The notes beneath the pieces are model-generated. The model was not told the origin of the DNA, ran no database searches, and worked only from the letters and a program-made list of their open reading frames with translations. Below are positions 40,730 to 58,316 of a DNA stretch of 64,000 nucleotides, piece by piece. The translations under genes and the position numbers were made by a program. This DNA is from Bifidobacterium actinocoloniiforme DSM 22766 (GTDB taxonomy: Bacteria > Actinomycetota > Actinomycetes > Actinomycetales > Bifidobacteriaceae): contig NZ_CP011786.1 of the NCBI RefSeq assembly GCF_001263395.1, forward strand, positions 682,001-746,000, read 5' to 3'. Each line of letters starts with the position of its first letter. The first letter of the stretch is position 1.

Positions 40730-42751
40730 CTAGTCGTCCAGACCAAGGCTCAACTTGCCGCCTGGAATGGCATCCAGCAGGTCCTTGGTGTATTGCTGCT
40801 GGGGGTGGTCGAAGACCTCGTCTGTCGTAGCGTGCTCAACCAACCGTCCGTGCTGCATGACAACCACCTCATCCGCAATCTGGCGGACCACGGCCAAGTC
40901 GTGAGTGATGAACAGATAGCTCAACCCACGCTCGGCTTGCAGGTCGTTCAGAAGCCGTAGGACCTGGTCCTGGACCAGCACGTCAAGGGCCGACACGGCT
41001 TCGTCGCAGATAATCACATCCGGGTTCAGCGCCATGGCCCTGGCGATCGCGATGCGCTGACGCTGGCCGCCGGACAGCTCATTGGGGTAACGCCCCATGA
41101 CTGAGGATGGCATCTCCACCATCTCCAGAAGCTCCTTGATTCGCTTCTCCCGGCTCTTCTTATCGCCGATGCCGTGGATGCGCAAGGGCTCCTCGATGGA
41201 GCGGTAGATGGAATACATGGGGTCCAGGGAACCGTACGGGTTCTGAAAGACCGGTTGTACATGCCTGCGGAAGTCCAGCATCTGGTGGGAGTTGAAGGAT
41301 GCGGTATCGCTGCCTTCGTAGATCACCTTACCGGAGGAGGGTTTGAGCAGGTGGAGGACCATGTTCGCCACGGTCGACTTGCCTGAGCCGGACTCGCCCA
41401 CAATGGCCAGCGTGGTGCCACGCTTGACCGAGAAGGACACATCGTCCACTGCCTTGAACATCTCCATGCGGCGGGGCAGCCTGAACTCACGGGTCAGGTG
41501 CTCCACTGTGATGATATGCTCGCTCTTCTCCAGGGTCTGCTCACCCTTGGCGTGGTGCTCCATGAAACTCTCAGCATCCTGGCCGCGCTCCTTAGCGGAG
41601 ATGATCCGCTGGGAGGCCAAGGAGGGAGCCGCATCGACCAAACGCTTGGTGTATGGGTGCTGGGGGTGCTGCAGCACTTCCAGGCTGGGTCCGGACTCGA
41701 CCACCCGCCCCTTGTACATCACCACGATGTGCTGGGCGCGCTCGGCGGCCAAGCCCAAATCGTGGGTGATGAAGAGCACTGCGGTGCCCAGGGAGTCCGT
41801 CAGACCCTGCAAGTGGTCCAGAATCTTCTTCTGAACAGTCACATCCAAGGCGGATGTGGGCTCGTCCGCGATCAGAAGGTCAGGCCGCGAGGCCAGGCCC
41901 ATCGCGATCAGGGCCCTTTGGCGCATACCGCCTGAGAACTCATGCGGGTACTGGCGGGCGCGTGTGGCGGCATCAGGCAGACCGGCCTCGGACAGGAGGC
42001 CTGCAATACGGTCGGCGGTATCGGAACCCTTGACGTACTGCTTGGCGATCGACCAGGCTTCCTCGTCGCTGACGCCAGCGCCGATCAAATCCTTAGCCAC
42101 GCCCCAGCGGGTCTCGGAGCCGGGATCCCACTCCGACTTGAAGTAATCCATAGCCTTATCGACGTCGGACTTGCCCGCGTTGATGACGGCCTCCCGAGCC
42201 GCCTTGAGCAGTTCCGGCAGGTCCTTCGAGGCGATGAAGAGCTCATCGTCCTGGTTTTTCAGGGTCACGTCCTCGGAGGACGCGAGCATCTTGGCCAGTT
42301 GTGAACGCTTCTCTCGGGTCACGTCCATATGGTTGGCGACCAGAGCCTCCTTGACCTGGGTCCCAATCCTCCAGACCGGGTTCAGGTTGCTCATAGGATC
42401 CTGAGGCACCAGGCCGATTTGCTGGCCGCGCACCTGCTCATAGTCCTTTTTGCTCAGCCCGACCAGCTCCTTGCCATGGAGCTTCATCGAGCCGCCGATC
42501 ACCTTGCCGGTGCCCGGCAGCAGGCCCAGGACCGCCATAGCGGAGGTGGACTTGCCTGAGCCGGACTCCCCCACAATCGCCACCCATTGACCGGGGTAGA
42601 CGTTGAAGGAGGCATCGGTGACCGCATGCACCGAGCGTCCGTCGGCGTTGAAGTCGACCTGGAGGTCCTTGACATCGAGAAGGGGGCCACCCTCCACCTG
42701 CGCCTGGGCCAATTTGGCTTTGATGCTGTCTGCTTGACTGTGTTCACTCAT
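40730..42751 (-). CDS. Fused peptide ABC transporter ATPase (DppD-DppF)
   Basis: 673 residues with two complete ABC domains in one chain; most systems use two genes. NBD1: Walker A GESGSGKST at about 61-69, Q-loop VPQDPMSNLNP, signature FSGGMRQRALIAMG, Walker B LLIADEP. NBD2: Walker A GESGSGKST at about 440, signature LSGGQRQRIAIARAM, Walker B VIICDEA (Ala in place of Pro). Each has the oligopeptide-type tail with ...HPYT and HPQQQYTKDLL. NBD1 carries an insertion of about 80-90 residues (around 125-230) between Q-loop and signature. Energises the permeases encoded next to it. Confidence 0.93.
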   Translation of the reverse strand: MSEHSQADSIKAKLAQAQVEGGPLLDVKDLQVDFNADGRSVHAVTDASFNVYPGQWVAIVGESGSGKSTSAMAVLGLLPGTGKVIGGSMKLHGKELVGLSKKDYEQVRGQQIGLVPQDPMSNLNPVWRIGTQVKEALVANHMDVTREKRSQLAKMLASSEDVTLKNQDDELFIASKDLPELLKAAREAVINAGKSDVDKAMDYFKSEWDPGSETRWGVAKDLIGAGVSDEEAWSIAKQYVKGSDTADRIAGLLSEAGLPDAATRARQYPHEFSGGMRQRALIAMGLASRPDLLIADEPTSALDVTVQKKILDHLQGLTDSLGTAVLFITHDLGLAAERAQHIVVMYKGRVVESGPSLEVLQHPQHPYTKRLVDAAPSLASQRIISAKERGQDAESFMEHHAKGEQTLEKSEHIITVEHLTREFRLPRRMEMFKAVDDVSFSVKRGTTLAIVGESGSGKSTVANMVLHLLKPSSGKVIYEGSDTASFNSHQMLDFRRHVQPVFQNPYGSLDPMYSIYRSIEEPLRIHGIGDKKSREKRIKELLEMVEMPSSVMGRYPNELSGGQRQRIAIARAMALNPDVIICDEAVSALDVLVQDQVLRLLNDLQAERGLSYLFITHDLAVVRQIADEVVVMQHGRLVEHATTDEVFDHPQQQYTKDLLDAIPGGKLSLGLDD

Positions 42752-42764
42752 GCTGTTCTCCAAC

Positions 42765-43763
42765 TCACGCCGTACGGCTCTTCGGATCCAGGGCGTCCTT
42801 GACCGCGTCGCCCATCATGATGAAGGCGAGGACGGTGATGGCCAGGGCGGCCGATGGATAGAAGAGCACGGAAGGATTGGTCCTCAGAAGGTTCTGCGCC
42901 GTCGAGATGTCGCCACCCCAGGAGACCACCGACGAAGGCAGACCGATGCCCAAGAAGGACAGGGTGGCCTCGGAGACGATGTAGGAGCCCAGGGACATGG
43001 TCGCCATCACGATGACCGGAGCCAGCGAGTTAGGGATGATGTGCCGGAAAAGGTTGCGTATAGGCGAGGAGCCCAAGGCCGTCGAAGCCGTGTTGAACTC
43101 CAGGTTCTTGGCTTCAAGGACCGCGCTTCTGGTGATGCGGGCCATGTTCACCCAGCCGAAGAGGGTGAGGGTGAAGACGATCTTCCAGATGGAGGTCGAG
43201 GTGCGGAACATCTGCAGGAGGACGATGGCGCCCAGGAGCATAGGAATCGCGAAGAAGATGTCGGTCACACGGCTCAGGACCGCGTCCACCCAGCCGCCGC
43301 AGAAGCCGGCGATGGCACCTACCAAGCCGCCCATGATGGTTACCAGAATCGTGGTCGCCACACCGATCGAGACCGAGGTGCGGGCGCCGTAAATCACGCG
43401 GGAGTACACATCGCAGCCCTGGAGGTCATATCCGAACGGATGACCGGAGCCACCGCCCTCCAATGAGTTCTGCAGGTTGCAGGAGACCGGGCTCTGCTTG
43501 GTGAAAAGCGCCGGGAAGAGCGCTACCAGTAGCACGAAAATTACCAAGACAGCGGAGATGATGAATATGGGGTTTCGCCTCAGGGTCTTCCAAGCGTCCG
43601 CCCACATGCTGGTGGCCGGAACCGCCTCGTTGATCGAGTCAACATCCTTGAGGGGGGTCTGGTCCAGGGGCGCTACGAAACGCTCCTGTCCTGGCAAGGG
43701 GTCTGGAAAGAAGACCTCAGCGTTTGAGTCGCGGCTTGCGCTGTTCATTGTCATGTCTGTCAT
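42765..43763 (-). CDS. dppC: Peptide ABC transporter permease (DppC type)
   Basis: 332 residues. N-terminal OppC-type domain (WKTLRRNPIFIISAVLVIFVLLVALFP), a periplasmic loop (CNLQNSLEGGGSGHPFGYDLQGCDVYSRVIYG, two Cys), then the BPD_transp_1 core of about five helices with the EAA loop (EAKNLEFNTASTALGSSPIRNLFRHIIPNSL). Pairs with the DppB-type subunit upstream (14-bp gap). ATG 43763 follows GAAGGA. Confidence 0.93.
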   Translation of the reverse strand: MTDMTMNSASRDSNAEVFFPDPLPGQERFVAPLDQTPLKDVDSINEAVPATSMWADAWKTLRRNPIFIISAVLVIFVLLVALFPALFTKQSPVSCNLQNSLEGGGSGHPFGYDLQGCDVYSRVIYGARTSVSIGVATTILVTIMGGLVGAIAGFCGGWVDAVLSRVTDIFFAIPMLLGAIVLLQMFRTSTSIWKIVFTLTLFGWVNMARITRSAVLEAKNLEFNTASTALGSSPIRNLFRHIIPNSLAPVIVMATMSLGSYIVSEATLSFLGIGLPSSVVSWGGDISTAQNLLRTNPSVLFYPSAALAITVLAFIMMGDAVKDALDPKSRTA

Positions 43764-43777
43764 CAATCCTTCACCCT

Positions 43778-44704
43778 TCACGCGTACCGGATGCGCGGAT
43801 CAAGCACCGCATAGAGCATGTCGACCACGAGGCTGCACAATACGAAGATCATCACCATGATCGTCACGATCGAGACCACCAAGGTGCCCTCGCCGCGCAA
43901 GATGGCCTGATAGAGCGTATTGCCCACGCCTTGGATGTTGAAGATGCGCTCGGTGATCATCGCGCCGCCCATCAGACCGCCGATGTCGGCCCCCAGGTAG
44001 GTGACCACAGGGATCAGCGAGTTGCGCAGGACGTGGCGAACGGTGACTTGGAAGTCGCTCATGCCCTTGGCTCGGGCGGTGCGCACGTAGTCCTCTGAGA
44101 TGTTTGTTGAAATCTCAGTGCGGGTCAGTCGGATTATCGATGCCATCGAGACCGATCCAAGCACTATGGCGGGCATCAACAGGTCGATGAAGCCAGGCGA
44201 CGCGCCGGCCGTAGCCGGCAGGAGGTGCCACTTCACGCCGAAGAGGTACTGCAGGATGAAGCCGGTGACGAAGGTAGGCACTGAAATCAGCAGGAGGGAG
44301 ATGATCAGGATGATCTGATCGGACCACTTGCCTTTGGTGAGGCCGGAGACGATGCCGAAGAGAATGCCGAAGATCCCCTCGAAGACAAAGGCCATCAGCG
44401 CCAGCTTGATTGTTACCGGGAAGGCTCGCCCGATCACGCTTATGACTGGCTGGCCTGCGAAGGTCTTGCCGAAGTTCAGGGTCAGCGCATTCTTCAGGAA
44501 GAGCAGGTACTGGACGAAGAATGGCTTGTCCAGGTTGTATTCCGATCGTATCTGGGCGGCTACGGCCTGATTGACCGGCTTGTCTCCGAACATCGCGGCG
44601 ACAGGGTCACCAGGCAACGCGAAAACCAGCGCGTAAATCAACAGAGTCGTACCGAGAACAACGGGAATCATCTGCAGAATTCGACGCAGAAGATATTTGC
44701 CCAT
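43778..44704 (-). CDS. dppB: Peptide ABC transporter permease (DppB type)
   Basis: 308 residues, six transmembrane helices. MGKYLLRRILQMIPVVLG is the standard DppB/OppB opening; EAA loop EDYVRTARAKGMSDFQVTVRHVLRN; GLMGGAMITERIFNIQGVG near the end. ATG 44704 has AAAGGAG at 7-9 nt; upstream codons in frame are not supported. First of the translocator genes, about 190 bp after the last binding protein, with its own upstream region and a TTTCGTAA motif. Confidence 0.94.
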   Translation of the reverse strand: MGKYLLRRILQMIPVVLGTTLLIYALVFALPGDPVAAMFGDKPVNQAVAAQIRSEYNLDKPFFVQYLLFLKNALTLNFGKTFAGQPVISVIGRAFPVTIKLALMAFVFEGIFGILFGIVSGLTKGKWSDQIILIISLLLISVPTFVTGFILQYLFGVKWHLLPATAGASPGFIDLLMPAIVLGSVSMASIIRLTRTEISTNISEDYVRTARAKGMSDFQVTVRHVLRNSLIPVVTYLGADIGGLMGGAMITERIFNIQGVGNTLYQAILRGEGTLVVSIVTIMVMIFVLCSLVVDMLYAVLDPRIRYA

Positions 44705-44855: not shown

Positions 44856-44890
44856 GGGGCTGGTCCAGGTCATGCGCGCTGGCCAGCCCC
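44856..44890 (-). terminator. Hairpin after SBP1
   Basis: GGGGCTGGTCCAG pairs with CTGGCCAGCCCC with one bulge, starting 7 nt after the SBP1 stop. It separates the binding proteins from the permeases. Confidence 0.65.
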
Positions 44891-44896: not shown

Positions 44897-46564
44897 TCAT
44901 TTCGTTAAATCAGGGTAGACCGGGGTCCCCTTCCAAGTGAAAGCGAAGCCGTGAATCCCTTTGGCGGCCACCCCTTTGGAGTTGGCGTAATAGAGGGGAA
45001 TCGTCGGGAGGTCCTTGAGTAGGATCTCCTCGGCTTGCTGGAAAACCTTGTTGGCCGCGTCTGTGCTTTTGGCTGCGGCGGCCTGGTTCAAAAGATCATC
45101 GACTTGCCGGTTTTTATAGTCCCCATGATTGGAGCCATGACCGCCGGCCGAGCTCGAAGCGAACTTGGGCTTCAAATAATCCTCCGGGGACGGGTAGTCC
45201 GGCTGCCAACCCGTGCGGAACGCCATGCCGTTGGCGGCGAAGGTGCGTCGGGTGATGTTGCCGTTGAACTCGGAGAAAGTCGGGATGGGCGAACCGGCCG
45301 CGTCGATGCCCAAGGAGTTCTTGATCGAATTGGCGATCGCGTCGTATATATCCTTGTGACCGCCGTCTGAGTTATAGGCCATCTTGAAGGAATCGTTGGG
45401 CGCCCAGGGCGATATGGCATTCGCCTTCGTCCAGAGCTCCTTGGCCTTCTTCGGATTGTACTTCAAGACGTCACCGCCCTTGAGCGAAGCGGAGTATCCA
45501 GGGATGGGCGGAGCGATGAAGTCCGTCGCGGGCTTGGCGGTGCCTGCCAGAACCTTGTCAATGATCTTCTGACGGTCAATAGACATGGAGATGGCCTGCC
45601 GACGAAGGCGACCTTCCTCGTCCTCCTTGAAGTGATTCATGGCCGAAGGGATGGTGATGTATTGGAAAACCGAACCCGGCTCAGACTTTGCCTGCACGCT
45701 CTGGTCAGACATGTAGGTTTTCAAAGCGGATGTAGGGATGGTGTCCATCACGTCCAGGTTGCCGGACTGTACGTCGGCATAGGCCGCGGTTGGATCGGTG
45801 TAGTTCCGGAATTCCAGACCACCGTTCTTGACTTTGATGTCTCCCTGGTAATCCGGGTTTTTGACCAGGACAATCGACTTGTTGTGCTCCCAGGACTTGA
45901 ATTTGTAAGGTCCTACCGAGACGGGCTTCTCGCCGAAGGCCTTCGTGTCTTTGTAAAAGACCTCGGGCAGAGGGGCATACGAGGTGTAGCCCACCAGGAT
46001 CGGGAAGGTCGAAGAAGGAGCGTTCAGCTCCACAGTGAACGTGTGATCGTCAAGTACTTTAAGGCCTGAGAGTTGTGCGGAAGGATCCACACCACTGGCT
46101 TGCAAGTCGTCGAAACCCTTGATTGGGTTGAAGAAACTGGAGCTCAACTGCCCATTGGCCGCGTTGGCGCCCCAGGACCAAGCCTTAGTGAAGGAGGAAG
46201 CGGTGACTGGAGTGCCGTCGGTGAACTTCCACCCATCCTTAATGGTGATCGTGTACTTGGTCATGTCGGCGTTGGGCTTGATTTCCTTGGCGATGTCGTT
46301 GACAGGTTTGCCTTTGTCATCGAAGCGCACGAGCTTGGAGAAAAGCATGTCCAGCGGGTTGCCGCCGCCCACCTCATTCGTGTTCGAAGGAATCAGGGGC
46401 TTGGCGGGCTCGGAACCAAAGACGCTGATTATCGCGTCCGTAGTGCTGCCGGCCTGTGGGTTGTTGTCATTATTAGCGTTATTCGAACTACCGCACCCGC
46501 TCAAAATCAATGCCAAAGAGCAGACGGAGGTCGTCAAGGCGGTCAGGCTGGTCTTCCTCATCAT
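44897..46564 (-). CDS. SBP1: peptide-binding lipoprotein (SBP family 5)
   Basis: 555-residue family-5 substrate-binding lipoprotein (DppA/OppA kind). Signal peptide with lipobox LSGC; then SVFGSEPAKPLIPSNTNEVGGGNP, the family segment DGWKFTDGTPVTASSF near 110, WEHNKSIVLVKNPDYQ near 230 and RRQAISMSIDRQKIIDKVL near 325. Closest in the array to SBP4 (both VGYT..APLPEVFYKDTKAFGEKPV). Nearest to the permeases, so perhaps the founding receptor. Start at ATG 46564 or the next ATG. Confidence 0.93.
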   Translation of the reverse strand: MMRKTSLTALTTSVCSLALILSGCGSSNNANNDNNPQAGSTTDAIISVFGSEPAKPLIPSNTNEVGGGNPLDMLFSKLVRFDDKGKPVNDIAKEIKPNADMTKYTITIKDGWKFTDGTPVTASSFTKAWSWGANAANGQLSSSFFNPIKGFDDLQASGVDPSAQLSGLKVLDDHTFTVELNAPSSTFPILVGYTSYAPLPEVFYKDTKAFGEKPVSVGPYKFKSWEHNKSIVLVKNPDYQGDIKVKNGGLEFRNYTDPTAAYADVQSGNLDVMDTIPTSALKTYMSDQSVQAKSEPGSVFQYITIPSAMNHFKEDEEGRLRRQAISMSIDRQKIIDKVLAGTAKPATDFIAPPIPGYSASLKGGDVLKYNPKKAKELWTKANAISPWAPNDSFKMAYNSDGGHKDIYDAIANSIKNSLGIDAAGSPIPTFSEFNGNITRRTFAANGMAFRTGWQPDYPSPEDYLKPKFASSSAGGHGSNHGDYKNRQVDDLLNQAAAAKSTDAANKVFQQAEEILLKDLPTIPLYYANSKGVAAKGIHGFAFTWKGTPVYPDLTK

Positions 46565-46607
46565 TGAATCATTCTTTCTCAATCAGGGATTTGGGTGGGA
46601 TGGTTCT

Positions 46608-46644
46608 CTGGATGGGAGGTGGCATTCGCCGCCCTCCCATCCAG
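46608..46644 (-). terminator. Hairpin after SBP2
   Basis: CTGGATGGGAGG pairs perfectly with CCTCCCATCCAG (12 bp), 10 nt after the SBP2 stop. Confidence 0.75.
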
Positions 46645-46653
46645 AGGCGGGGA

Positions 46654-48312
46654 CTACTTGGTCAGATTCGTGTAGTCGGGAGTGGCCTTCCAGGTGAAGG
46701 TGAAGCCGTGCACGTTCTTAGCGGCAACACCTTTGGAGTTAGCGTTGTAGAGCGGCACGACCGGCAGGTCCTCCAGGAGGATCTCCTCGGACTGCTGGAA
46801 GCACTTGTTGGCTTCATCCGCGGTCTTGGCCTGCGAACCCTTCTTGAGCAGGTCGTCGAACTTCGGGTTCTTGTAATCGCCGTCGTTCGAACCATTGCCA
46901 TCGGCCGCGGCCGTGGAGTAGATCGGCTGCAGATAGTTCTCCAACGAGGGGTAATCAGGCTGCCAGCCGGAACGGAAGGCCGAATCGGTGAACTTACGGG
47001 CCGACACGTTGTTGCGGAACTCGTTGAACGTGGGCTGGGGGTTGCCCTCGGCCTTGATGCCCAGCGAATTCTTGATCGAATTGGCGAGCGCGTCGTAAAT
47101 CTCCTTGTGACCACCATCGGAATTGTAGGCCATCTTGAACGTATCCGAATCGGACCAAGCCGAGATCTTGTTGGCCTCAGCCCACAACTCCTTAGCCTTC
47201 GTCGGGTTGTACTTCAACACATCCTCGCCCTTCAAGGTCTTGGAGGAACCCGGAATCGTAGGGGCCGAGAAGTCGGTGGCCACAGTGCCGGTGTCGCCCA
47301 ACACCTTGTCGAGCAGCTGCTTGCGGTCAATCGACATCGAGATCGCCTGACGGCGCAGCTTGCCTTCCTTGTCCTGACCGAAGTGCTTCATGTAGGTAGG
47401 AATCGTGAAATCCTGGAAGACGGGACCAGGTTCGTTTACGGCCTGGACTTGGGAATCGGTCTGGAAGGTCTTGATGTCCGCGGAGGGAATCGTGTCGAGC
47501 ACGTCAAGGTTGCCGGACTGCACATCCGCATAGGCAGCGGTCGGATCTGTGTATGAGCGGAACTCGATGCCGCCGTTCTTCACCTTCGTGTCGCCCTTGT
47601 AATCCTTGTTCTTCACAAGTTTGACCGACTTGTTGTGCTCCCAGGACTGGAACTTGTACGGCCCGTCAGAGACCGGCTTCTCGCCGAAGGCCTTGGGGTC
47701 CTTGAAGAAGGACTCAGGCAGCGGAGCGAAGTAGGACATGCCGAGCTGGGTCGGGAAGGTGGAAGAGGGAACGGATAGCTCAACCGTGAAGCTATGGTCG
47801 TTCTGAACCTTGAGGCCCTCCAGCTGCGCGTCCGCTGGCACGCCCTTGGCCTGCAAGGCGTCGAATCCCTTGATAACGCCGTAGAAACTGGAACCCAGCT
47901 GGGCGTTGTTCACGTTCGCGCCCCACGACCAGGCCTTAGTGAAGGAGGAAGCGGTGACCGGAGTGCCATCAGTGAACTTCCAACCTGGCTTCAGGGTAAT
48001 CGTGTACTGTGTCATATCCGCGTTGGGCTTGATCTCCTGAGCGACCTCGTTGTGAGTCTTGCCCTTGGAGTCGAAGCGAACCAGTCCTGAGAAAAGCAGG
48101 TCCATCGGGTTCCCGCCGCCCACCTCGGTGGTATCCGAGGGGATCAGCGGTTTGGCCGGCTCGGATCCGAAAACGCTGATCATCGCGTCCGTCGACCCTT
48201 CCGGCGATTCAGACGCCTTGCCGGAATCCGACGAACCGCCACAAGCGCTCAAGGCGATTGCGATTGAGCAGGCTGACGCCAGCAAAACCGCCGTGCGTGA
48301 TTTCCTTATCAT
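46654..48312 (-). CDS. SBP2: peptide-binding lipoprotein (SBP family 5)
   Basis: 552 residues; lipobox LSAC. Contains SVFGSEPAKPLIPSDTTEVGGG and WEHNKSVKLVKNKDY. From about residue 310 to 425 it is nearly identical to SBP3 (IDRKQLLDKVLGDTGTVATDF...), as is part of the last 50 residues, while the N-terminal half differs clearly. Ligand-pocket variation is therefore mostly N-terminal in this pair. AAGGAAGG precedes ATG; a perfect palindrome (48330-48346) sits just upstream. Confidence 0.93.
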   Translation of the reverse strand: MIRKSRTAVLLASACSIAIALSACGGSSDSGKASESPEGSTDAMISVFGSEPAKPLIPSDTTEVGGGNPMDLLFSGLVRFDSKGKTHNEVAQEIKPNADMTQYTITLKPGWKFTDGTPVTASSFTKAWSWGANVNNAQLGSSFYGVIKGFDALQAKGVPADAQLEGLKVQNDHSFTVELSVPSSTFPTQLGMSYFAPLPESFFKDPKAFGEKPVSDGPYKFQSWEHNKSVKLVKNKDYKGDTKVKNGGIEFRSYTDPTAAYADVQSGNLDVLDTIPSADIKTFQTDSQVQAVNEPGPVFQDFTIPTYMKHFGQDKEGKLRRQAISMSIDRKQLLDKVLGDTGTVATDFSAPTIPGSSKTLKGEDVLKYNPTKAKELWAEANKISAWSDSDTFKMAYNSDGGHKEIYDALANSIKNSLGIKAEGNPQPTFNEFRNNVSARKFTDSAFRSGWQPDYPSLENYLQPIYSTAAADGNGSNDGDYKNPKFDDLLKKGSQAKTADEANKCFQQSEEILLEDLPVVPLYNANSKGVAAKNVHGFTFTWKATPDYTNLTK

Positions 48313-48329
48313 GATTACCTTCCTTACTG

Positions 48330-48346
48330 CATGTGAACTTCACATG
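48330..48346 (-). promoter_or_regulatory. 17-nt palindrome upstream of SBP2
   Basis: CATGTGAA-C-TTCACATG, perfect arms, 17-34 nt before the SBP2 start. A candidate operator or RNA hairpin. Confidence 0.45.
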
Positions 48347-48412
48347 AACATGCGCGGCGTGGTTGTAATATGCGCCCCCGACGCCTGAACCGCGCCGCGC
48401 AAGAATTCAGTC

Positions 48413-48446
48413 TGGGAGGGAGGAGGTTTACCCCTCCCCCCTCCCA
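48413..48446 (-). terminator. Hairpin after SBP3
   Basis: TGGGAGGGAGGAGG with CCCCTCCCCCCTCCCA, 12 nt after the SBP3 stop. Confidence 0.65.
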
Positions 48447-48458
48447 CTCCATCCAGGG

Positions 48459-50123
48459 TTACTTAGTCATGCTCGGATAATCGGGGATGCCCTGCCAATT
48501 GAAGGTGAAGCCGTGCACGTTCTTAGCGGCAACACCTTTGGAGTTAGCGTTGTAGAGCGGCACGACCGGCAGGTCCTCCAGGAGGATCTCCTCGGACTGC
48601 TGGAAGAGCTTATTAGCGGAGTCCACGCTCCTAGCCGAAGCCGCTTTCTTCAAGAGCTCGTCGAACTTCGGGTTCTTGTAATCACCGTCGTTCGAACCAT
48701 TGCCATCGGCCGCGCCAGTCGAGTAGTTCGGCTTCAAGTAGTCTTCGGGCGAGGGGTAATCAGGCTGCCAGCCGGAACGGAAGGCCGAATCGGTGAACTT
48801 ACGCTGGGTAACGTTGTTGCGGAACTCACTGAACGTGGGCTGGGGGTTGCCCTCGGCCTTGATGCCCAGCGAATTCTTGATCGAATTGGCGAGCGCGTCG
48901 TAAATCTCCTTGTGACCACCATCCGAATTGTAGGCCATCTTGAACGTATCCGAATCGGACCAAGCCGAGATCTTGTTGGCCTCAGCCCACAACTCCTTAG
49001 CCTTCGTCGGGTTGTACTTCAACACATCCTCGCCCTTCAAGGTCTTGGAGGAACCCGGAATCGTAGGAGCGATGAAGTCCGTGGCCACAGTGCCGGTGTC
49101 GCCCAACACCTTGTCGAGCAGCTGCTTGCGGTCAATCGACATCGAAATCGCCTGACGGCGCAGCTTGCCTTCCTTGCCCTCGCCGAAGTGCTTCATGTAA
49201 GAGGGGATCGTGAACTGTTGAATGACGGCACCAGGGGTGTTCACTGCCTGGACCATGTTGTCGGTCTGGAAGGTCTTGACATCCGCGGAGGGAATCGTGT
49301 CGAGCACGTCAAGGTTGCCGGACTGCACATCCGCATAAGCAGCTGACGGGTCAGAGTAGACACGGAACTCGATGCCCGCGTTCTTCACCTTGATGCCACC
49401 CTTGTAGTAAGGGTTTTTGACCAGCCTAATGGACTTGTTGTGCTCCCAGGACTGGAACTTGTACGGCCCGTTGGAAACAGGCTTCTCGCCGAAGGCCTTG
49501 GGGTCCTTGTAGAAGCTATCAGGCAGAGGGGCGAACGGGCCGTTGCCTATCTTGACGGGGAAGGTGGAGGAAGGGGCGTTCAAATCGACCGTAAAGGTGT
49601 GGTCATCGACAACCTTGAGGCCGGAGAGCTGGGCATCAGCGGCAACACCCTTTTGCTGAAGTTCATCGAACCCCTTGATTTCGCTATAGCTATCGGAGGC
49701 TACCTGGGCATTGGCGGCATTAGCCGCCCAAGACCAAGCCCTGGTGAAGGAAGTCGCGGTGATCGAGGTGCCGTCCGAGAACTTCCAACCATCCTGAATC
49801 GTGATCCTGTATTGGGTCATATCAGCGTTTGGCTTGATTTCCTTGGCCACTTCGTTGACCATCTTGCCCTTGGTGTCGAAGCGGACCAGGGTCGAGAACA
49901 TCTGCCCGATTGGATGGCCGCCGCCCACCTCATTAGTGTCGGAGGGAATCAGCGGTTTTGCCGGCTCGGAACCAAAGACGCTGATTATCGCTTTGCTGTC
50001 CGACGCCTGGTTCGCATCCGTTGATTTATCGCTGGATTCATTCGAACCCCCGCAACCGCTGAGCACGAGAGCCAGCGAGCATGCGGAAGCAGCTACAAGT
50101 GAAAACGCTGAGGCTTTCTTCAT
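48459..50123 (-). CDS. SBP3: peptide-binding lipoprotein (SBP family 5)
   Basis: 554 residues; lipobox LSGC. SVFGSEPAKPLIPSDTNEVGGGHP, DGWKFSDGTSITATSF, WEHNKSIRLVKNPYY. Shares near-identical DNA with SBP2 over two tracts (48500-48605 and about 48828-49180), but not in the first half of the protein. The Lys/Asn/Gly content and length fit a functional gene. AAGGAAGAAG lies upstream of ATG. Confidence 0.93.
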   Translation of the reverse strand: MKKASAFSLVAASACSLALVLSGCGGSNESSDKSTDANQASDSKAIISVFGSEPAKPLIPSDTNEVGGGHPIGQMFSTLVRFDTKGKMVNEVAKEIKPNADMTQYRITIQDGWKFSDGTSITATSFTRAWSWAANAANAQVASDSYSEIKGFDELQQKGVAADAQLSGLKVVDDHTFTVDLNAPSSTFPVKIGNGPFAPLPDSFYKDPKAFGEKPVSNGPYKFQSWEHNKSIRLVKNPYYKGGIKVKNAGIEFRVYSDPSAAYADVQSGNLDVLDTIPSADVKTFQTDNMVQAVNTPGAVIQQFTIPSYMKHFGEGKEGKLRRQAISMSIDRKQLLDKVLGDTGTVATDFIAPTIPGSSKTLKGEDVLKYNPTKAKELWAEANKISAWSDSDTFKMAYNSDGGHKEIYDALANSIKNSLGIKAEGNPQPTFSEFRNNVTQRKFTDSAFRSGWQPDYPSPEDYLKPNYSTGAADGNGSNDGDYKNPKFDELLKKAASARSVDSANKLFQQSEEILLEDLPVVPLYNANSKGVAAKNVHGFTFNWQGIPDYPSMTK

Positions 50124-50198
50124 CTTGATCTTCTTCCTTTGTCAGGTACATCTTCTTTTGCTGCTGGCGAAAGCGGAGGTTACCGCCTTCTTATACGC

Positions 50199-50231
50199 GG
50201 CGCTTGGACCGCTCCCCGCGGACCAAGCGCC
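50199..50231 (-). terminator. Hairpin after SBP4
   Basis: GGCGCTTGGACCGC with GCGGACCAAGCGCC (one mismatch), 21 nt after the SBP4 stop. Confidence 0.75.
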
Positions 50232-50251
50232 ACCACCCGACTACTACGGAA

Positions 50252-51904
50252 TTATTTTGTTAGTTCCTCGTAGACAGGTAAGTTCTTCCAATTCATCGTG
50301 AACCCGTTCACGTTCTTGGCCGCTGCGCCCTTGGCGTTGGCGTAGTAAATCGGGACGGCCGGCAAATCCTCCATCAGGAGCCCTTCGGCCCGCTGATAAA
50401 TCTTGTTGGCTTCGTCCACGCTCTTGGCCTGAGCCGCCTGGGTGAGCATGTCATCGAACTTGGGGTTTTTGTAATCGCCGTCGTTGGACCCGTTGCCGTC
50501 CGCCGCCGAAGAGGCGTAGAGGGGCTTCAGGTAGTTCTCGGGCGAAGGATAGTCAGGCTGCCAGGAGGAGCGCAGGACGGCATCGTGGTACTTTCGGGCG
50601 GATACGTTGTTGCGGAACTCCGAGAAGGTGGGAACAGGGGTGCCTTCGGCCTTGATGCCTAAAGTGTTCTTGATGGAATTGGCGATTGCGTCGTAGGTGT
50701 CCTTGGCGCCGCCGTCCGAGTTGTAAGCCAGCTTGAAGGTCTGGTCAGCGGGCCATTTGGAGATGGCGTCCGCCTGGGCCCAAAGCTTCTTGGCTTCCTT
50801 GGGATTGTATTTCAGGACTTCGGAGCCCTTCAAATCCTTGGAGTAGCCGGGGATTGAAGGCGCGGTGAAATCGGTGGGCTGGGTACCCATGCCCCCCAAG
50901 ACCTTATCGATGATCTGCTTACGATCAATCGACATCGAGATGGCCTGCCGACGCAGACGGCCCTCTTGGTCCTCCTTGAAGTGGTCCATGAAGGAGGGGA
51001 TCGTGAAGCCTTGAGTCACCGAACCGGGCTCGTTGTAGGCCTGAACTGTGGAATCGGATTGGAAGGTCTTCTGAGCCGAAGTGGGAATCGAGTCAATGAC
51101 GTCCAAGTTGCCGGCCTGCACATCCGCATAGCCAGCGTCCACATCCGTGTAGATGCGGAATTCCAGGCCGCCGTTCTTGACCTGGGCCGTGCCCTTGTAG
51201 CCCTTGTTCTTGACCAGTTTGATGGCCTTGTTGTGTTCCCAGGACTGGAAGTTGTAAGGACCGACCGTCACAGGCTTCTCGCCGAAGGCTTTGGTGTCCT
51301 TGTAAAAGACTTCGGGCAGCGGGGCGAACGCGGTGTAACCCACCTGAATCGGGAAGGTGGATGAGGGGGACTTCAGATCGACCGTGAAAGTATGGTCGTC
51401 GAGGACCTTGAGGCCGGAGAGCTGGGCATTCGCCGGGGTGCCCTTGGCCTGCGCCTCGTCATAGCCCTGGATGTTGTCGAAGAAAGAGGCATCCAGCTGT
51501 GCGTTGTTGACGTTGGCGCCCCAGGACCAGGCCTTGGTGAAGGAGGAAGCGGTGACCGGCGTGCCGTCGGAGAACTTCCAGCCGTCGTTGATCGTGACCT
51601 TGTACTGGGTCATGTCCGCGTTGGCCTTGATTTCCTTGGCGATCTCATTGTGAGCCTTGCCGGACTTATCGAAGCGCACGAGCTTGGAGAACATCATATC
51701 GAGCGGGTTCCCACCACAAGCCTCCCCCGTATCGGAGGGAATCAACGGCTTCGCGGGCTCACAACCGTAAGCAGAAATGATGGCATCAACACTAGAGACC
51801 CTAGACTTGTCGTCCTGGCCTGACGTGCCGCCGCAACCTGCAAGCGCTAATGATAGCGCGCAAGCTGACGCTGCAACTATGGTGAGCTTCGGGCTCTTCT
51901 TCAT
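50252..51904 (-). CDS. SBP4: peptide-binding lipoprotein with an extra Cys pair
   Basis: 550 residues; lipobox LAGC. The conserved opening is altered to AYGCEPAKPLIPSDTGEACGG: Cys at about 48 and 63 replace residues that are Ser/Gly in the other members, and could form a disulphide on the cell surface. Otherwise closest to SBP1. DGWKFSDGTPVTASSF, WEHNKAIKLVKNKGY and RRQAISMSIDRKQIIDKVL are present. It has the second-longest upstream gap, so it probably has its own promoter. Confidence 0.93.
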   Translation of the reverse strand: MKKSPKLTIVAASACALSLALAGCGGTSGQDDKSRVSSVDAIISAYGCEPAKPLIPSDTGEACGGNPLDMMFSKLVRFDKSGKAHNEIAKEIKANADMTQYKVTINDGWKFSDGTPVTASSFTKAWSWGANVNNAQLDASFFDNIQGYDEAQAKGTPANAQLSGLKVLDDHTFTVDLKSPSSTFPIQVGYTAFAPLPEVFYKDTKAFGEKPVTVGPYNFQSWEHNKAIKLVKNKGYKGTAQVKNGGLEFRIYTDVDAGYADVQAGNLDVIDSIPTSAQKTFQSDSTVQAYNEPGSVTQGFTIPSFMDHFKEDQEGRLRRQAISMSIDRKQIIDKVLGGMGTQPTDFTAPSIPGYSKDLKGSEVLKYNPKEAKKLWAQADAISKWPADQTFKLAYNSDGGAKDTYDAIANSIKNTLGIKAEGTPVPTFSEFRNNVSARKYHDAVLRSSWQPDYPSPENYLKPLYASSAADGNGSNDGDYKNPKFDDMLTQAAQAKSVDEANKIYQRAEGLLMEDLPAVPIYYANAKGAAAKNVNGFTMNWKNLPVYEELTK

Positions 51905-52178
51905 AACTGTGCTTCTTCTCCTTCAGTCCAACACCCTGCGGCTTTGTGCGCCCAGGATGGAAACTTGGCCTCACCCCACGAATTAGGCTTGCACCTAGCC
52001 CATGAAGCTAATTCAACTATTCTCTTACGTAAATGTTTCGTTCGCAAGACATGTTCTCAGTGCTCTCGCAAGGGTTGGGCGAGAGGATCTGGTCCATAAA
52101 CCAAGGAACCACAGGCCGCCAGCGGACAAGCTGCGCCCGTGAGGTTTTCAAGGCTTTACACCCTCTTTGCCAGGAGCA

Positions 52179-52184
52179 TTTATA
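52179..52184 (-). promoter_or_regulatory. Possible -10 for SBP4
   Basis: TATAAA on the minus strand (5 of 6), about 275 nt before the SBP4 start; no clear -35. Confidence 0.3.
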
Positions 52185-52242
52185 GGACTCTCACAGCTCA
52201 CTTTCCGCTATCTGGGTTAAGGAGCGGCAGGATTCAGCAATG

Positions 52243-52250
52243 TTACGAAA
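52243..52250 (-). promoter_or_regulatory. TTTCGTAA motif upstream of SBP4
   Basis: TTTCGTAACATTG on the minus strand; the same core as at 44805 and 54185. Confidence 0.35.
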
Positions 52251-52342
52251 ACGTTTCTGCCGTGTTCTGGATTTCAGCTCACAGCCGTCATACTCAAGAC
52301 TTTGGAGCCGCTTCCGTCACTACAGGCAGCTCCACAGGCAAG

Positions 52343-52384
52343 CTGACCGGCCACTGGAGCCCCAGGGCCCAGGTGACCGGTCAG
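52343..52384 (-). terminator. Hairpin after SBP5
   Basis: CTGACCGGCCACTGG with CCAGGTGACCGGTCAG, 16 nt after the SBP5 stop, with an inner GCCC/GGGC stem. Confidence 0.7.
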
Positions 52385-52399
52385 ACTTGAGGAGAGAGT

Positions 52400-54061
52400 C
52401 TACTTGCTGGTGACGCTAGCCATCCAGTAGACCGGGTAGTTCTGCCAGCTCATGGTGAAGTCCTTCACCTGCTTGGAGGCAGCGCCAGTGCGGTTCAGGT
52501 AGTAGAGCGGAATACCGGGCATATCCCTCAAAAGGATGCCTTGAGCCTTGGCGTAGAGGGCGTTCTCCTCTTTGCTGTCAGCGGCCTTAGCGGACTGCTT
52601 GATCAAGTCATCGAATTCGGGGTTCTTGTAGTCGGTATCGTTTGCTCCCTTGCCATCAGCCGAGTCAGAGGCATAGATCGGGTGCAGGTAGTTCTCCACC
52701 GATGGGTAGTCTGGGGTCCAGCCAGCGTGGAAAGCACCAGTCATCTTACGAGCGGTCACGTTCTGACGGTACTCCTGGAAGGTTGCCACGGGCACATCTT
52801 CTGTGTCGATGCCCAGGTTGGACTTCACCATGTTCGCCACGGCCTTGTAGACCGACTTGTAGCTGGTCTCGTCGGCATTGTAGCTAAAGGTGAGCTTGTA
52901 GTCGGCAGGAATCTTGGAAATCTTGTTTGCCTGGTCCCACAGCTCCTTGGCCTTCTTCGGGTTGTACTTGATGTTGCCGGAGTTTTCCAGATCCGTCGTG
53001 TATCCGGGAATCGTGGGCGCCGAATAGGAGGCCGCTGGGGAAGCGGTGCCGTTGAGCACCTTCTTGCAGATGGACTCGCGGTCGATGGACATGGAGATGG
53101 CCTGGCGACGCAGGATGCCTTCCTGATCTTCCTTGAAGTGCTCCAAGTTAGAGGGCAGGGCCACGGCGGCGATACTGGAACCAGCCTTGTTGAAGGACTG
53201 CACGTTCGTATCAGAGGTGAAGGTCTTGCTGGCTGAGGCGGGCACGTTCTCCATTAAGTCCAGATTCCCAGCCTGAATATCGGCGTAAGCGGCGTCGGTG
53301 GACGTATATATTTTGAAGGTGATGCCGCCGTTGCGAGGCTTGAACTGACCCTTGTAATAAGGGTTCTTTACCAACTGAATGGACTTGTTGTGCTCCCAGG
53401 ATTGGAACTTGTAAGGACCATTACCCACCGGGTGCTCGCCAAAGCCCTTCGGGTCCTTGTAGAAGGACTCAGGTAGCGGGAAGAAGGCATCATAGCCCAC
53501 CTTGATTGGGAATACGGAATCAGGCTGGGTCAAATCAACGGTGAACGTCAGGTCATCAATAACCTTCAGACCGCTCAACTGGGCGTCAGATTTAATGTTG
53601 GTGTCCTGCAGCTCATCGTATCCCTTAATCAGGGAGAGGAAGCTGGAACCCTTCTGCGCATTGACCGCATTAGCCGTGTAGCTCCAGGCCTTGGTGAAGG
53701 AGGAAGCCTTGACTGGAGAGCCGTCGCTGAACTTCCAACCCGGCTTGAGCTTAACGGTGTACTGGGTCTTATCAGCGCTCGGGGTTATCGAGTCAGCCAC
53801 CTCATTGACCGACTTGCCGTCTGGAGTGACGCCCACCAGGCCAGAGAAAAGCATGGAGCTGGGCCTGCCGCCACCACGCTCGTTGGTATCCCCTGGAATC
53901 AGCCCGTTCTGAGGCTCAGTATCAAACGCGGTGATAATCGCGTTGGAATCGGATTTCGCCGAGGAGTCCGAACCTTCGGACGCACTTCCGCAGGCGCCCA
54001 GGGATAGGGCCACGATACAGGCTGCGGCGGTAATCGTTATCTTCTGTTTAGTGTTGTGCAC
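52400..54061 (-). CDS. SBP5: peptide-binding lipoprotein (second subfamily)
   Basis: 553 residues; lipobox LGAC. Belongs to the second subfamily with SBP6/7: AFDTEPQNGLIPGDTNERGGGRP, VTPDGKSVNEVADSI, FPLPESFYKDPKGFGEHPVGNGPYKFQSWEHNKSIQ, RESICKKVLNGTA and an ending in NYPVYW. Distinct from SBP1-4 in the SEPAKP region and the C-terminus. GTG start with GAGGA upstream. Flanked by the two longest gaps in the array. Confidence 0.93.
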   Translation of the reverse strand: MHNTKQKITITAAACIVALSLGACGSASEGSDSSAKSDSNAIITAFDTEPQNGLIPGDTNERGGGRPSSMLFSGLVGVTPDGKSVNEVADSITPSADKTQYTVKLKPGWKFSDGSPVKASSFTKAWSYTANAVNAQKGSSFLSLIKGYDELQDTNIKSDAQLSGLKVIDDLTFTVDLTQPDSVFPIKVGYDAFFPLPESFYKDPKGFGEHPVGNGPYKFQSWEHNKSIQLVKNPYYKGQFKPRNGGITFKIYTSTDAAYADIQAGNLDLMENVPASASKTFTSDTNVQSFNKAGSSIAAVALPSNLEHFKEDQEGILRRQAISMSIDRESICKKVLNGTASPAASYSAPTIPGYTTDLENSGNIKYNPKKAKELWDQANKISKIPADYKLTFSYNADETSYKSVYKAVANMVKSNLGIDTEDVPVATFQEYRQNVTARKMTGAFHAGWTPDYPSVENYLHPIYASDSADGKGANDTDYKNPEFDDLIKQSAKAADSKEENALYAKAQGILLRDMPGIPLYYLNRTGAASKQVKDFTMSWQNYPVYWMASVTSK

Positions 54062-54379
54062 GAAACCATCCTCTTCTTCTCAGGTGTGTGACTGCCGAAT
54101 ATGGCTGGTCTCCCCCAACCACCAACGAAAATGCAGAAAGAACTCTCCTGTTGTTTCGTTAGGGGTCACAGTAGACAATCATCGTTACGAAAGAGGGCAA
54201 AGTGTCCACCAGTTGGACAGTTTCTTTTCAAGAGTCGTCATCCCATGCTCATTCGCGGGCGGCTTTCGTGCGGCGAATGACCGTTCCCACCTATACGCGA
54301 CAGGCATTGAACGGGGAGACTTAAGCCCGCGAAAACACTCAGTCGTAACGCCCACGCATGCCCACTAATTGAAGGATGC
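54062..54379. other. Upstream region of SBP5
   Basis: No gene seen. Contains the TTTCGTAA motif at 54185-54192 and AT-rich stretches likely to hold the SBP5 promoter, before similarity to the tyrA-like gene begins. Confidence 0.45.
54185..54192 (-). promoter_or_regulatory. TTTCGTAA motif upstream of SBP5
   Basis: TTTCGTAACGATG on the minus strand, 124 nt before the SBP5 start. Confidence 0.35.
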
Positions 54380-54760: not shown

Positions 54761-54815
54761 CTCCTCACTGAATAGGCTACGGCCCTGGTTCTTTCAAGAC
54801 GGAACACACCACAGC

Positions 54816-54847
54816 GCCCGGCACCAAGCAGGTGCTTGGGGCCGGGC
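54816..54847 (-). terminator. Hairpin after SBP6
   Basis: GCCCGGCACCAAGCA with TGCTTGGGGCCGGGC, about 54 nt after the SBP6 stop. No U-tract. Confidence 0.65.
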
Positions 54848-54900
54848 GGAAAGGGGTTATGGCACGAGCGTACTACCTTTATGCTCTTTGCTGGGTCCGC

Positions 54901-56562
54901 TCATTTGGAGGACGGGACGCTCATCTGCCAGTAAACAGGGAAGTTCTGCCAGTTGATCGAGAAGCCCTTGACCTGCTTTGCCGCTGCGCCGTTGGCGTTG
55001 GCGTAGTAGACCGGGATGCCGGGCAGGTCGTGGAGAAGAACCCCCTGTGCCTGGTCGTAGAAGGACTCGACCTCAGACTGGGAAGTTGCCTTGGCCGCCT
55101 GGTTCATCAGGCTGTCGAACTGGCTGCTCTTGTAATCGCTGTCGTTGGCGCCCTTGCCGTCCGCTGCGGCGGAACCGTAGATCGGGTTCAGGTAGTTCTC
55201 CACCGACGGGTAGTCAGGCGACCATCCGGCGTGGTAAGCGCCCTGAATCTTACGCTCGGTCACGTTCTGCCGGAACTCCTGGAAGGTGGGGATGGGCACA
55301 TCCTCGCAGTTGATGCCAAGGTTGGTCCTAACCATGTTCGCCAAGGCCTTGTACACCGGCCCGAAGCCCTGATCGGCGTTGTAAGTGAAGTCCAACTTAG
55401 CGCTCGTGGGCCAGGGGGAGATCTTGTCGGCTTGTTGCCACAAGCTCTTGGCCTTCGCCGCGTTGTACTTGATGTTCTCGGAGTTCTTCAGCGAGGTGGA
55501 GTATCCGGGGATCGTGGGGGCCGAGTAGCTCTTAGCCGGCGTGGCGGTGCCGTTAAGCACCTTCTTGCAGATCGCGTCACGGTCAATCGACATGGAGACG
55601 GCCTGCCGGCGCAGGATGCCTTCCTCATCGTGCTTGAAGTGATCCAGGTTGCCCGAGATTCCAACGGATTCGATGACTGATCCGGGCTTGTTGTAGGCCT
55701 GAACCGAGGAATCGGTGGTGAAGGTCTTACTGGCTGAAGATGGCACGTTCTCCATCACATCCAGGTTCCCGGCTTGAATGTCCGAATAAGCGGAGTCGTT
55801 GGCTGTGTACATCATGAAGTTCACGCCCCCGTTACGCGGCCTGAACTGGCCCTTATAGTCGGGGTTCTTCACGAGCTGAATCGACTTGTTGTGCTCCCAG
55901 GACTTGAACTTGTATTGGCCGTTGCCCACTGGATGCTCACCGAAGCCCTTCGGATCCTTGTAGAAGGACTCAGGCAAGGGCGAGAAGGCGTTGTATCCCA
56001 CCTTGATCGGGAAAATCGAGTCAGGCTCGGACAGGTCGACGATGAAGGTCAAATCGTCCTGGACCTTCAGACCCGACAGCTGTTCATCGGACTTGACGCC
56101 AGACTTCTGCAGATCGTCATACCCCTTGATCGTGGAGAAATAGCTCGCGTTCTTCTGTGCGTTGGCCACGTTGGCCCCATAGCTCCAGGCCTTGGTGAAG
56201 GACTGCGCGGTCACTGGACTGCCATCGGAGAACTTCCAACCCGGCTTGAGCTTGACCGTGAACTGGGTGTTGCCGGAATTCGGTTTGATCGAATCGGCCA
56301 CTTCGTTGACGGCCTTACCGTCCGGGCTGAAGGCCACCAACCGGGCGAGAATCAGGGACAGGGGCTTGCTGCCTCCTCGCTCGTTGGTGTCAGCGGGAAT
56401 CAGCGGCCCCTGAGGCTCCGTGTCGTAAGCGGTAATGACAGCCGAGGCATCACCCTGGTCATCAGCTCCTGAAGACGCCGAAGAGCCGCCACAAGCAGCC
56501 AAGGACAGGGTTGCGATGCAAGCCGTCGCTGCGGCGGCGAGTTTGCGGATGGTATGGGTCAC
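54901..56562 (-). CDS. SBP6: peptide-binding lipoprotein (second subfamily)
   Basis: 553 residues; lipobox LAAC. AYDTEPQGPLIPADTNERGGSKP, FSPDGKAVNEVADSIKPN, DAICKKVLNGTATPAKSYSAPTIPG, GINCEDVPIPTFQEFRQNVTERK, ending NFPVYWQ. Shares the SKP and DPKGFGEHPVGNGQYKF segments with SBP7. GTG start following AAGGGAAG. Downstream of it lies the pseudogene region. Confidence 0.93.
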   Translation of the reverse strand: MTHTIRKLAAAATACIATLSLAACGGSSASSGADDQGDASAVITAYDTEPQGPLIPADTNERGGSKPLSLILARLVAFSPDGKAVNEVADSIKPNSGNTQFTVKLKPGWKFSDGSPVTAQSFTKAWSYGANVANAQKNASYFSTIKGYDDLQKSGVKSDEQLSGLKVQDDLTFIVDLSEPDSIFPIKVGYNAFSPLPESFYKDPKGFGEHPVGNGQYKFKSWEHNKSIQLVKNPDYKGQFRPRNGGVNFMMYTANDSAYSDIQAGNLDVMENVPSSASKTFTTDSSVQAYNKPGSVIESVGISGNLDHFKHDEEGILRRQAVSMSIDRDAICKKVLNGTATPAKSYSAPTIPGYSTSLKNSENIKYNAAKAKSLWQQADKISPWPTSAKLDFTYNADQGFGPVYKALANMVRTNLGINCEDVPIPTFQEFRQNVTERKIQGAYHAGWSPDYPSVENYLNPIYGSAAADGKGANDSDYKSSQFDSLMNQAAKATSQSEVESFYDQAQGVLLHDLPGIPVYYANANGAAAKQVKGFSINWQNFPVYWQMSVPSSK

Positions 56563-56619
56563 GAGGACTTCCCTTCATTCTTGTAATCACTAGACCTAGT
56601 ACGCATGATTCCTGCCGAT

Positions 56620-56650
56620 CCGGGGCCGCTCATGCGCGAAGCGGCCCCGG
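56620..56650 (-). terminator. Hairpin after SBP7
   Basis: CCGGGGCCGCT with AGCGGCCCCGG, perfect 11 bp, 14 nt after the SBP7 stop. Confidence 0.8.
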
Positions 56651-56663
56651 GACCTGCACCTGT

Positions 56664-58316
56664 CTACTTGGTGACTTGCCAGTAGACAGGTATGTTCTGC
56701 CAGCTTATCCGGAAGGACTTGACCTGCTTGGAGGCCACAGCATTAGCGTTGCGATTATGCAAGGGGATGCTGGGCAAGTCCCGCAGGAGCAGGCCTTGAG
56801 CCTGGGCGTACAAAGCATTGGCATCCTTGGCGGAACTCGCTTCTGCCGCCTTGTCGAGCAGGTCGTCGAACTCCGGGTTCTTATAGTCGCCATCGTTCGA
56901 GCCCTTGCCTTCGGCGGAAACCGAAGCGAAGTTGGGAGTCAGGTAGTCCTCCGGCGAGGGGTACGAGGGAGCCCAACCAGTGCGGAAGGCCCCCTGTATC
57001 TTGCGGCCCACCGCGTTCTGCCGCAGCTCTTGGAAGGTTGGTATCGGCGTGTCCTGCGCATCAATGCCGAGGTTGGTCTTGACCATGTTCGCCACGGCCT
57101 TGTAGATGGGGCCATGATCGCCATCCGCGTTATAGGTGAAGGAGAACTTATGGTCCGCCGGCCAGGGCGAAATGGCATCCGCCTTGGCCCAAAGCTCCTT
57201 GGCCTTCTTGGGGTTGAACTGGACGTTCCCCTCGTTCTTCAGGTCCTTGGTGAAGCCGGGAATCCTGGGCGAGGTAAAGTCGGCTGCAGGCGTGGCCGTG
57301 CCGTTGATCACTTTCTTGCAAATGGATTCACGGTCGATTGCCATTGAGATGGCCTGCCGACGCAGACGGCCCTCCTCCTGGTCCGTCCTGAAGTGCTCCA
57401 AGCCAGCGGGGATTGTGAACTTTTCGATGACCGCGCCCGGTTTGTTGTAGGACTGTACCGAGGAATCGGTGGTGAAGGTCTTACTGGCGGAGGTGGGAAC
57501 GTTCTCCACCAGGTCCAGATTGCCGGCCTGCACATCGGCGTAGGCCGAATCCCCTGAGGTGTAGACGACGAACTCGACTCCCCCGTTGCGCGGCTTGAAC
57601 TGACCCTTGTAGTCGGGGTTCTTCACCACCTGAATCGACTTGTTGTGCTCCCAGGACTTGAACTTGTACTGGCCGTTACCCACCGGATGCTCGCCGAACC
57701 CCTTCGGATCCTTGTAGAAGGACTCAGGCAAAGGCGCGTAAGCCAGGTAACCCACCTTGATCGCGAACGTGGAGTCAGGCTGGTTCAGGTCCACAGTGAA
57801 AGTGCGGTCATCTGTGACCTTAAGGCCTTCCAATTGCTCATCGCCCTTGTGGCCTGCGCCCTGCAGCTCCTTGTAACCCTTGATGGTGGCGAAGGAACTG
57901 GAATCCTTCATAGCGTTAGCCGAGTTCGCTACATAGCTCCAAGCCCTGGTGAAAGACCGCGAAGTCACAGGCGTGCCGTCGGTGAAGGTCCAGCCGGGCT
58001 TGATTTTGATGGTGTATGCGGTGTTGTCGGCGTTAGGCTTAATCGATTCGGCCACCTCATTGACGGCCTTCCCGTCAGGGTCGAAGGCCACCAGCTGGGA
58101 GAACATGAGGTTGCCAGGCTTGCTGCCGCCCACCTCATTGGTATCGCCTGGGATCAGTGGGCTCTGCGGCTCTGCCGAGAACACGCGAATCATCGCGTTA
58201 GGATCGCCAGCCTGAGGAGAGGAGCTGGAATTGGACGATCCTCCGCAAGCGCTAAAGGACATGGCTACGGCACAAGCCGAGGCCACAAGGGCCATTTTCT
58301 TTCCGCGAGGGGACAT
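56664..58316 (-). CDS. SBP7: peptide-binding lipoprotein (second subfamily)
   Basis: 550 residues; lipobox FSAC. VFSAEPQSPLIPGDTNEVGGSKP, DPDGKAVNEVAESIKPN, WEHNKSIQVVKNPDY, ESICKKVINGTATPAADF, ending NIPVYWQVTK. First gene of the array in the direction of transcription. ATG 58316 follows GGGAG at 8 nt; the frame is open to 58394 without support. About 200 bp of upstream sequence before xerC includes an ATGCAT-rich stretch near 58425-58452. Confidence 0.92.
   Translation of the reverse strand: MSPRGKKMALVASACAVAMSFSACGGSSNSSSSPQAGDPNAMIRVFSAEPQSPLIPGDTNEVGGSKPGNLMFSQLVAFDPDGKAVNEVAESIKPNADNTAYTIKIKPGWTFTDGTPVTSRSFTRAWSYVANSANAMKDSSSFATIKGYKELQGAGHKGDEQLEGLKVTDDRTFTVDLNQPDSTFAIKVGYLAYAPLPESFYKDPKGFGEHPVGNGQYKFKSWEHNKSIQVVKNPDYKGQFKPRNGGVEFVVYTSGDSAYADVQAGNLDLVENVPTSASKTFTTDSSVQSYNKPGAVIEKFTIPAGLEHFRTDQEEGRLRRQAISMAIDRESICKKVINGTATPAADFTSPRIPGFTKDLKNEGNVQFNPKKAKELWAKADAISPWPADHKFSFTYNADGDHGPIYKAVANMVKTNLGIDAQDTPIPTFQELRQNAVGRKIQGAFRTGWAPSYPSPEDYLTPNFASVSAEGKGSNDGDYKNPEFDDLLDKAAEASSAKDANALYAQAQGLLLRDLPSIPLHNRNANAVASKQVKSFRISWQNIPVYWQVTK

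Follow-up and report, generated by a model that had tools for sequence, protein, structure and literature searches.

Work on how many receptors an ABC translocator can serve, and on how these share it, has usually dealt with two to five receptors that are scattered. Several OppA proteins of Borrelia serve one Opp translocator. The Dpp system of Mycobacterium tuberculosis has a single ATPase, which is a fused one. In Pseudomonas aeruginosa five DppA proteins with distinct ligand profiles operate on one DppBCDF (PMC4206461, PMC12728205), and one of them, DppA5, has no detectable peptide binding (PMC12728205). The peptide pocket of such receptors has been described in both M. tuberculosis, where D445 of DppA (MtDppA) sits together with W442 (PMC6751184), and E. 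coli, where the equivalent D436 touches the peptide amino group as well as the scoop loop of DppB, and where an R383D+D436R variant binds no dipeptide (PMC12136057). Here we describe a locus with seven old and distinct receptors in one row.

The bee-associated species Bifidobacterium actinocoloniiforme carries, on the minus strand of the 64,000-nucleotide window (the whole stretch of DNA that was analysed), seven ORFs for family-5 lipoproteins at 44897-58316 that are followed by dppB, dppC and a fused ATPase (Table 1). The receptors are named from S1, which adjoins dppB, to S7, which adjoins xerD, and are 550-555 residues long as counted from likely start codons. A profile search of the genome gave PF00496 (SBP_bac_5) scores of 214-237 bits for all seven loci against a cut-off of 32.4, and matches above 200 bits each are not due to chance; S1 and S7 were also domain-scanned one by one. 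A lipobox Cys is present in every receptor (LSGC, LSAC, LSGC, LAGC, LGAC, LAAC and FSAC). The ORFs, the PF00496 matches and two ABC_tran domains thus confirm the initial annotation, which had described seven lipobox-bearing family-5 lipoproteins ahead of single dppB, dppC and fused-ATPase genes. The two segments that it gave as common to all seven are each exact in six, as WEHNKS reads WEHNKA in S4 and RRQA(I/V)SMSIDR reads SMAIDR in S7. Pairwise identity is 51-78% over all seven receptors, with 64-78% inside S1-S4 and inside S5-S7 and 51-57% across these groups. The best solved relatives are MtDppA structures (sequence E 1e-116 to 1e-122), and MtDppA is also the best match in a fold search with a model of S7 (Z 43-45). 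Two permeases and a fused two-domain ATPase adjoining the receptors fit an actinobacterial DppABCD importer.

Table 1. Features of the receptor array, with positions in the window.
Feature	Position	Strand	Remarks
S7	56664..58316	-	SBP family 5 lipoprotein; Ser (TCG) at MtDppA D445 equivalent (peptide-amine Asp)
Hairpin after S7	56617..56654 (approximate ends)	-	z -2.1
S6	54901..56562	-	SBP family 5 lipoprotein; ortholog in B. xylocopae
Hairpin after S6	54815..54848 (approximate ends)	-	z -3.0
Palindrome TGTCCA-N5-TGGACA	54203..54219	.	S5 promoter region; conserved ahead of S5 in 4 relatives (5 species in all)
S5	52400..54061	-	SBP family 5 lipoprotein; orthologs in G007, G018 and Bombiscardovia coagulans, partial one in B. 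xylocopae
Hairpin after S5	52338..52389 (approximate ends)	-	z -2.9
Second GlnR-like box GAAACGTTTTCGTAAC	52242..52257	-	Upstream of S4
GlnR-like box GAAACATTTACGTAAG	52024..52039	-	Upstream of S4; same motif as in glnA promoter
S4	50252..51904	-	SBP family 5 lipoprotein; orthologs in 4 other species
Hairpin after S4	50197..50233 (approximate ends)	-	z -4.3; pairing also in G007, G018, G031
S3	48459..50123	-	SBP family 5 lipoprotein; gene-conversion tract shared with S2
Hairpin after S3	48413..48446 (approximate ends)	-	z -3.1
S2	46654..48312	-	SBP family 5 lipoprotein; gene-conversion tract shared with S3, codons about 351-397
Hairpin after S2	46606..46646 (approximate ends)	-	z -5.4
S1	44897..46564	-	SBP family 5 lipoprotein; orthologs in G007 and Bombiscardovia coagulans
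Hairpin between S1 and dppB	44856..44890 (approximate ends)	-	z -2.1
dppB permease	43778..44704	-	One ortholog per genome in 27/27 genus genomes
dppC permease	42765..43781	-	ORF overlaps end of dppB; start codon provisional
Fused DppD-type ATPase	40730..42763	-	Two ABC_tran domains in one ORF

The row is unevenly packed, with gaps of 839 bp ahead of S5 and 495 bp ahead of S4 that split it into the three blocks S7-S6, S5 and S4-S3-S2-S1-dppBCD. A search of both gaps for remnant SBP genes gave nothing convincing. In the larger gap (window 54062-54900) a palindrome and a promoter lie towards S5; a decayed xerD copy suspected there from an alignment was dropped, its best match being no better than shuffles.

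How this array compares with those of its relatives was followed in a genus sample of 27 genomes, this genome included. The number of receptors ahead of dppB is one in 6 genomes, two in 11, three in 6, four in 2, and six and seven in one genome each. One of the two four-receptor genomes is Bombiscardovia coagulans, the six belong to B. xylocopae and the seven of B. actinocoloniiforme make the largest array among relatives. The count for B. xylocopae comes from joining the order of three contigs (L122, L123, L149); this draft assembly breaks within receptor genes, probably owing to near-identical stretches. The view that a typical dpp/opp locus has one receptor holds for most other Bifidobacteriaceae and actinomycete loci, where a single SBP precedes dppB, but not for the genus relatives that carry two to six, and bee-clade species as a whole have two to seven. 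As judged from these genomes, the expansion is graded and clade-specific, and the seven-receptor array stands at its extreme. Tandem arrays of this size did not come up in a literature search, which is weak evidence given limited journal coverage. In two relatives (L127 5316-7088, L141 12235-14370) the extra receptor has diverged and is without the conserved Trp ahead of the peptide-site Asp.

Conserved promoter regions occur at two places inside the array, ahead of S4 and ahead of S5, and the elements of both are common to genomes G006, G007, G018 and G031. Five species share the box GAAAC-n6-GTAAG ahead of S4, and four of them have a further box upstream of it. The glnA genes of the same five all carry GAAAC-n6-GTAAC, 87-92 bases ahead of the gene start. 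The pattern GWAACNNNNNCGTAAS is found only three times genome-wide, twice ahead of S4 and once ahead of glnA. Published GlnR boxes share the form (5 bp-n6-5 bp) present in the S4 and glnA promoters of these five species, and B. longum glnA has been reported with GlnR sites (PMC10704036); additionally, glnR is encoded in the genome (PF21695, 137 bits). Because the S4 boxes are held in common with the glnA promoter and match the GlnR-box form, S4-S3-S2-S1-dppBCD is probably nitrogen-controlled through GlnR, and S5 and S6/S7 would be under control separate from this block. The proposal that receptors are switched onto the translocator can thus be refined to separate conserved promoter elements ahead of S5 and S4, with the latter GlnR-like. 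Genome-wide, the general box pattern is not enriched over its control in every genome. The Streptomyces pattern GTNAC-n6-GAAAC shows no enrichment, and a Sigma-70 scan was uninformative, with fewer matches than in shuffles. Opposite-strand matches to GAAAC-n6-GTAAC that precede the first receptor of the row (S7 in this genome and S5 in G007) were set aside as probably xerD coding sequence on the basis of their codons.

Hairpins lie 3' of all seven receptor genes, with z ranging from -2.1 to -5.4. Those that follow the S4 orthologs of G007, G018 and G031 keep the pairing with a sequence that is wholly different between species. The hairpins likely terminate or shield the individual receptor messages, which would keep receptors above the translocator level. 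No U-run was found at the array hairpins, and a scan for U-tract terminators gave fewer matches than shuffles. An Rfam search of the window matched only RNase P, whose RNA lies at window 20753-21108.

The surroundings of the array also differ from those in relatives, where pheA and tyrA are found a short way upstream; in B. xylocopae the two genes are flanked by typA and xerD. Here the interval from typA to xerD has no pheA, this being the only genome of the 27 without a match to the PDT (pheA) domain, and tyrA (window 59821-60816) is decayed, scoring under the PF02153 cut-off. With pheA missing and tyrA decayed, the organism is predicted to be auxotrophic for Phe and Tyr and would likely need to import both. 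The coincidence of the largest array with this predicted auxotrophy is one case and a correlation only.

We propose that this locus encodes an actinobacterial DppABCD-type peptide importer in which a single receptor gene has multiplied to seven. Each lipoprotein, anchored at the cell surface, would catch a particular range of short peptides, and all seven, differing in that range, would dock on the same DppB-DppC translocator with the fused ATPase driving import. GlnR would switch on S4-S3-S2-S1-dppBCD under nitrogen limitation, S5 and S6/S7 would respond to other signals, and the hairpins, by ending or protecting receptor messages, would let receptors outnumber translocators. Taken as a whole, from seven receptors with differing ranges on one translocator to the GlnR-controlled S4 block and a hairpin-set receptor excess, we hold this account to be fairly probable.

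The copies might instead bind much the same peptides and be kept to raise the receptor total, and part of S2 and S3 is indeed still homogenised by gene conversion, with an unbroken run of 94 variable sites at which the two agree, where shuffles reach 34 at most. However, the recent near-identical copies that such a dosage effect leads one to expect are absent from receptors that are only 51-78% identical. In a tree none of the receptors of this genome are sister to one another; for six of the seven (S1-S6) an ortholog or a closer relative exists in another species, and S7 is confined to this genome. Values of dN/dS between orthologs are 0.03-0.13, which indicates purifying selection but is only rough because ortholog dS is near saturation. 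Closer relatives elsewhere for six copies, together with purifying selection, argue that the copies are old lineages with different ligands, and dosage is an unlikely explanation. A wider peptide range from seven receptors, as had been suggested, gains indirect support since the paralogs are old and kept under purifying selection. Whether these receptors all use the adjacent permeases was addressed by a census of the whole genome (1.83 Mb, one contig). This yielded ten SBP_5 genes; the seven of the array, one at 923-926 kb with its own complete permease set, one at 18 kb and a lone one at 1.036 Mb. Among 32 permease domains the only Dpp/Opp-like ones are the array pair and a pair at 923-924 kb, and the other permeases examined against DppB and DppC gave no convincing match. 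The second translocator, being complete, could accept some array receptors. A division of the receptors between the two translocators is nevertheless very unlikely, as the second set includes an SBP of its own that shares only 24% identity with the array receptors, its permeases are 28-29% identical to DppBC, and receptor genes adjoin dppB in all 27 genus genomes. With that set accounted for by its own SBP, and with no orphan permease sets paired with individual receptors found in the genome, S1-S7 most likely share one DppBCD, and the one-translocator reading of the initial annotation is well supported. As for the remaining two SBP_5 genes, the protein at about 18 kb (L012 8024-9553) has an N-terminal membrane segment, lacks a lipobox and is encoded two genes from glnR. 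The lone gene at about 1,035,265-1,036,936 (L013 7266-8937) is 46% identical to S1 and has a frameshift in its C-terminal third; likely relatives of it are intact in four other genus genomes, at 42-44% identity to S6.

A further question is whether every receptor serves in peptide uptake. S1-S6 keep both the Trp and the Asp of the peptide site (W442 and D445 in MtDppA), the Asp being the residue to which the peptide amino group binds. In S7 the Trp is kept and a Ser, codon TCG, replaces the Asp. S7 alone has Ser among 158 motif matches in the sampled loci, a figure that counts some genes more than once where loci overlap; the other 157 have Asp. Since the peptide-amine Asp is missing, we file S7 as an SBP of the family-5 fold and only as a candidate peptide binder. 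With Ser at the amine site it may accept ligands that have no free amine, show weak binding or act as a competitor; it may also bind no peptide whatever. Some receptors, such as S7, would on a different explanation be binders of signals or other ligands that share only the fold, possibly without delivery to DppBCD. The singular Ser fits such a role, as do the failure of the E. coli R383D+D436R variant to bind dipeptide (PMC12136057), the example of P. aeruginosa DppA5 (PMC12728205) and MtDppA D445A, which yielded no protein in E. coli (PMC6751184), yet is present in a DppABCD cryo-EM structure on record (8xfc). Against it stand the Trp and Asp of S1-S6 and, for S7 itself, its place inside the array, its retained Trp and a model with a confident SBP fold (pLDDT 92), so that we regard non-nutrient binding as possible but doubtful. 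Heme uptake also comes to mind, as the closest solved relative, MtDppA, has been reported to bind heme (PMC6751184). In alignments of the seven receptors, His131 corresponds to Ser or Asp and Arg179 to Lys, Leu or Gln, and because the heme residues of MtDppA (PMC6751184) are not kept, this function is not supported and is extremely improbable.

For the seven-receptor peptide importer that we favour, the role of S7 is the least certain and the most interesting part. One speculative elaboration, somewhat unlikely as it stands, is a two-layer receptor bank on one translocator. Its first layer would be the nitrogen-controlled S4-S1 with the translocator, and its second the separately controlled S5 and S6/S7, with S7 either amine-independent (e.g. 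for blocked peptides) or an empty competitor. The S4/glnA boxes, the hairpin after every receptor, the Asp-to-Ser change in S7 and the loss of pheA with decay of tyrA are new relative to the initial annotation. Receptor competition, specialisation and amino-acid dependence become testable within one genus, where relatives have one to four or six receptors and where the promoters of the seven-receptor row hint at which of its members are co-regulated with the translocator. Additionally, the naturally occurring Asp-to-Ser change of S7 offers a ready-made way to test whether this family needs the amine clamp.

Compared with this array, the OppA family of Borrelia has fewer adjacent copies, and some are plasmid-borne. 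The M. tuberculosis DppABCD (Rv3666c-Rv3663c) resembles it in having two permeases, one ATPase gene and the Trp-x-x-Asp peptide site of S1-S6, but has one receptor in place of seven and differs in its heme residues, which are not kept here, and in the Asp that S7 lacks. The arrays of B. asteroides, Bombiscardovia and B. xylocopae have related receptors at the same xerD-dppB locus (checked for B. xylocopae and this genome); these have two to six receptors, and none contains S7. The DppBCDF system of P. aeruginosa likewise has paralogous receptors on one translocator, four of them encoded nearby, with distinct ligand profiles and one non-binder, but it is a Gram-negative system with five receptors, a broken row and two separate ATPases. 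In Streptococcus pneumoniae the Ami permease is shared by AmiA and AliA-D, SBP_bac_5 lipoproteins that are 52-60% identical and differ in peptide preference, whereas the Ali genes have separate locus numbers rather than forming one row and the receptors are larger, at about 650 aa (PMC11192437). The B. actinocoloniiforme locus is made of ordinary parts in an extreme but well-documented arrangement, a variant of the known design of many receptors on one translocator, with a plausible nitrogen switch and one natural binding-site outlier.
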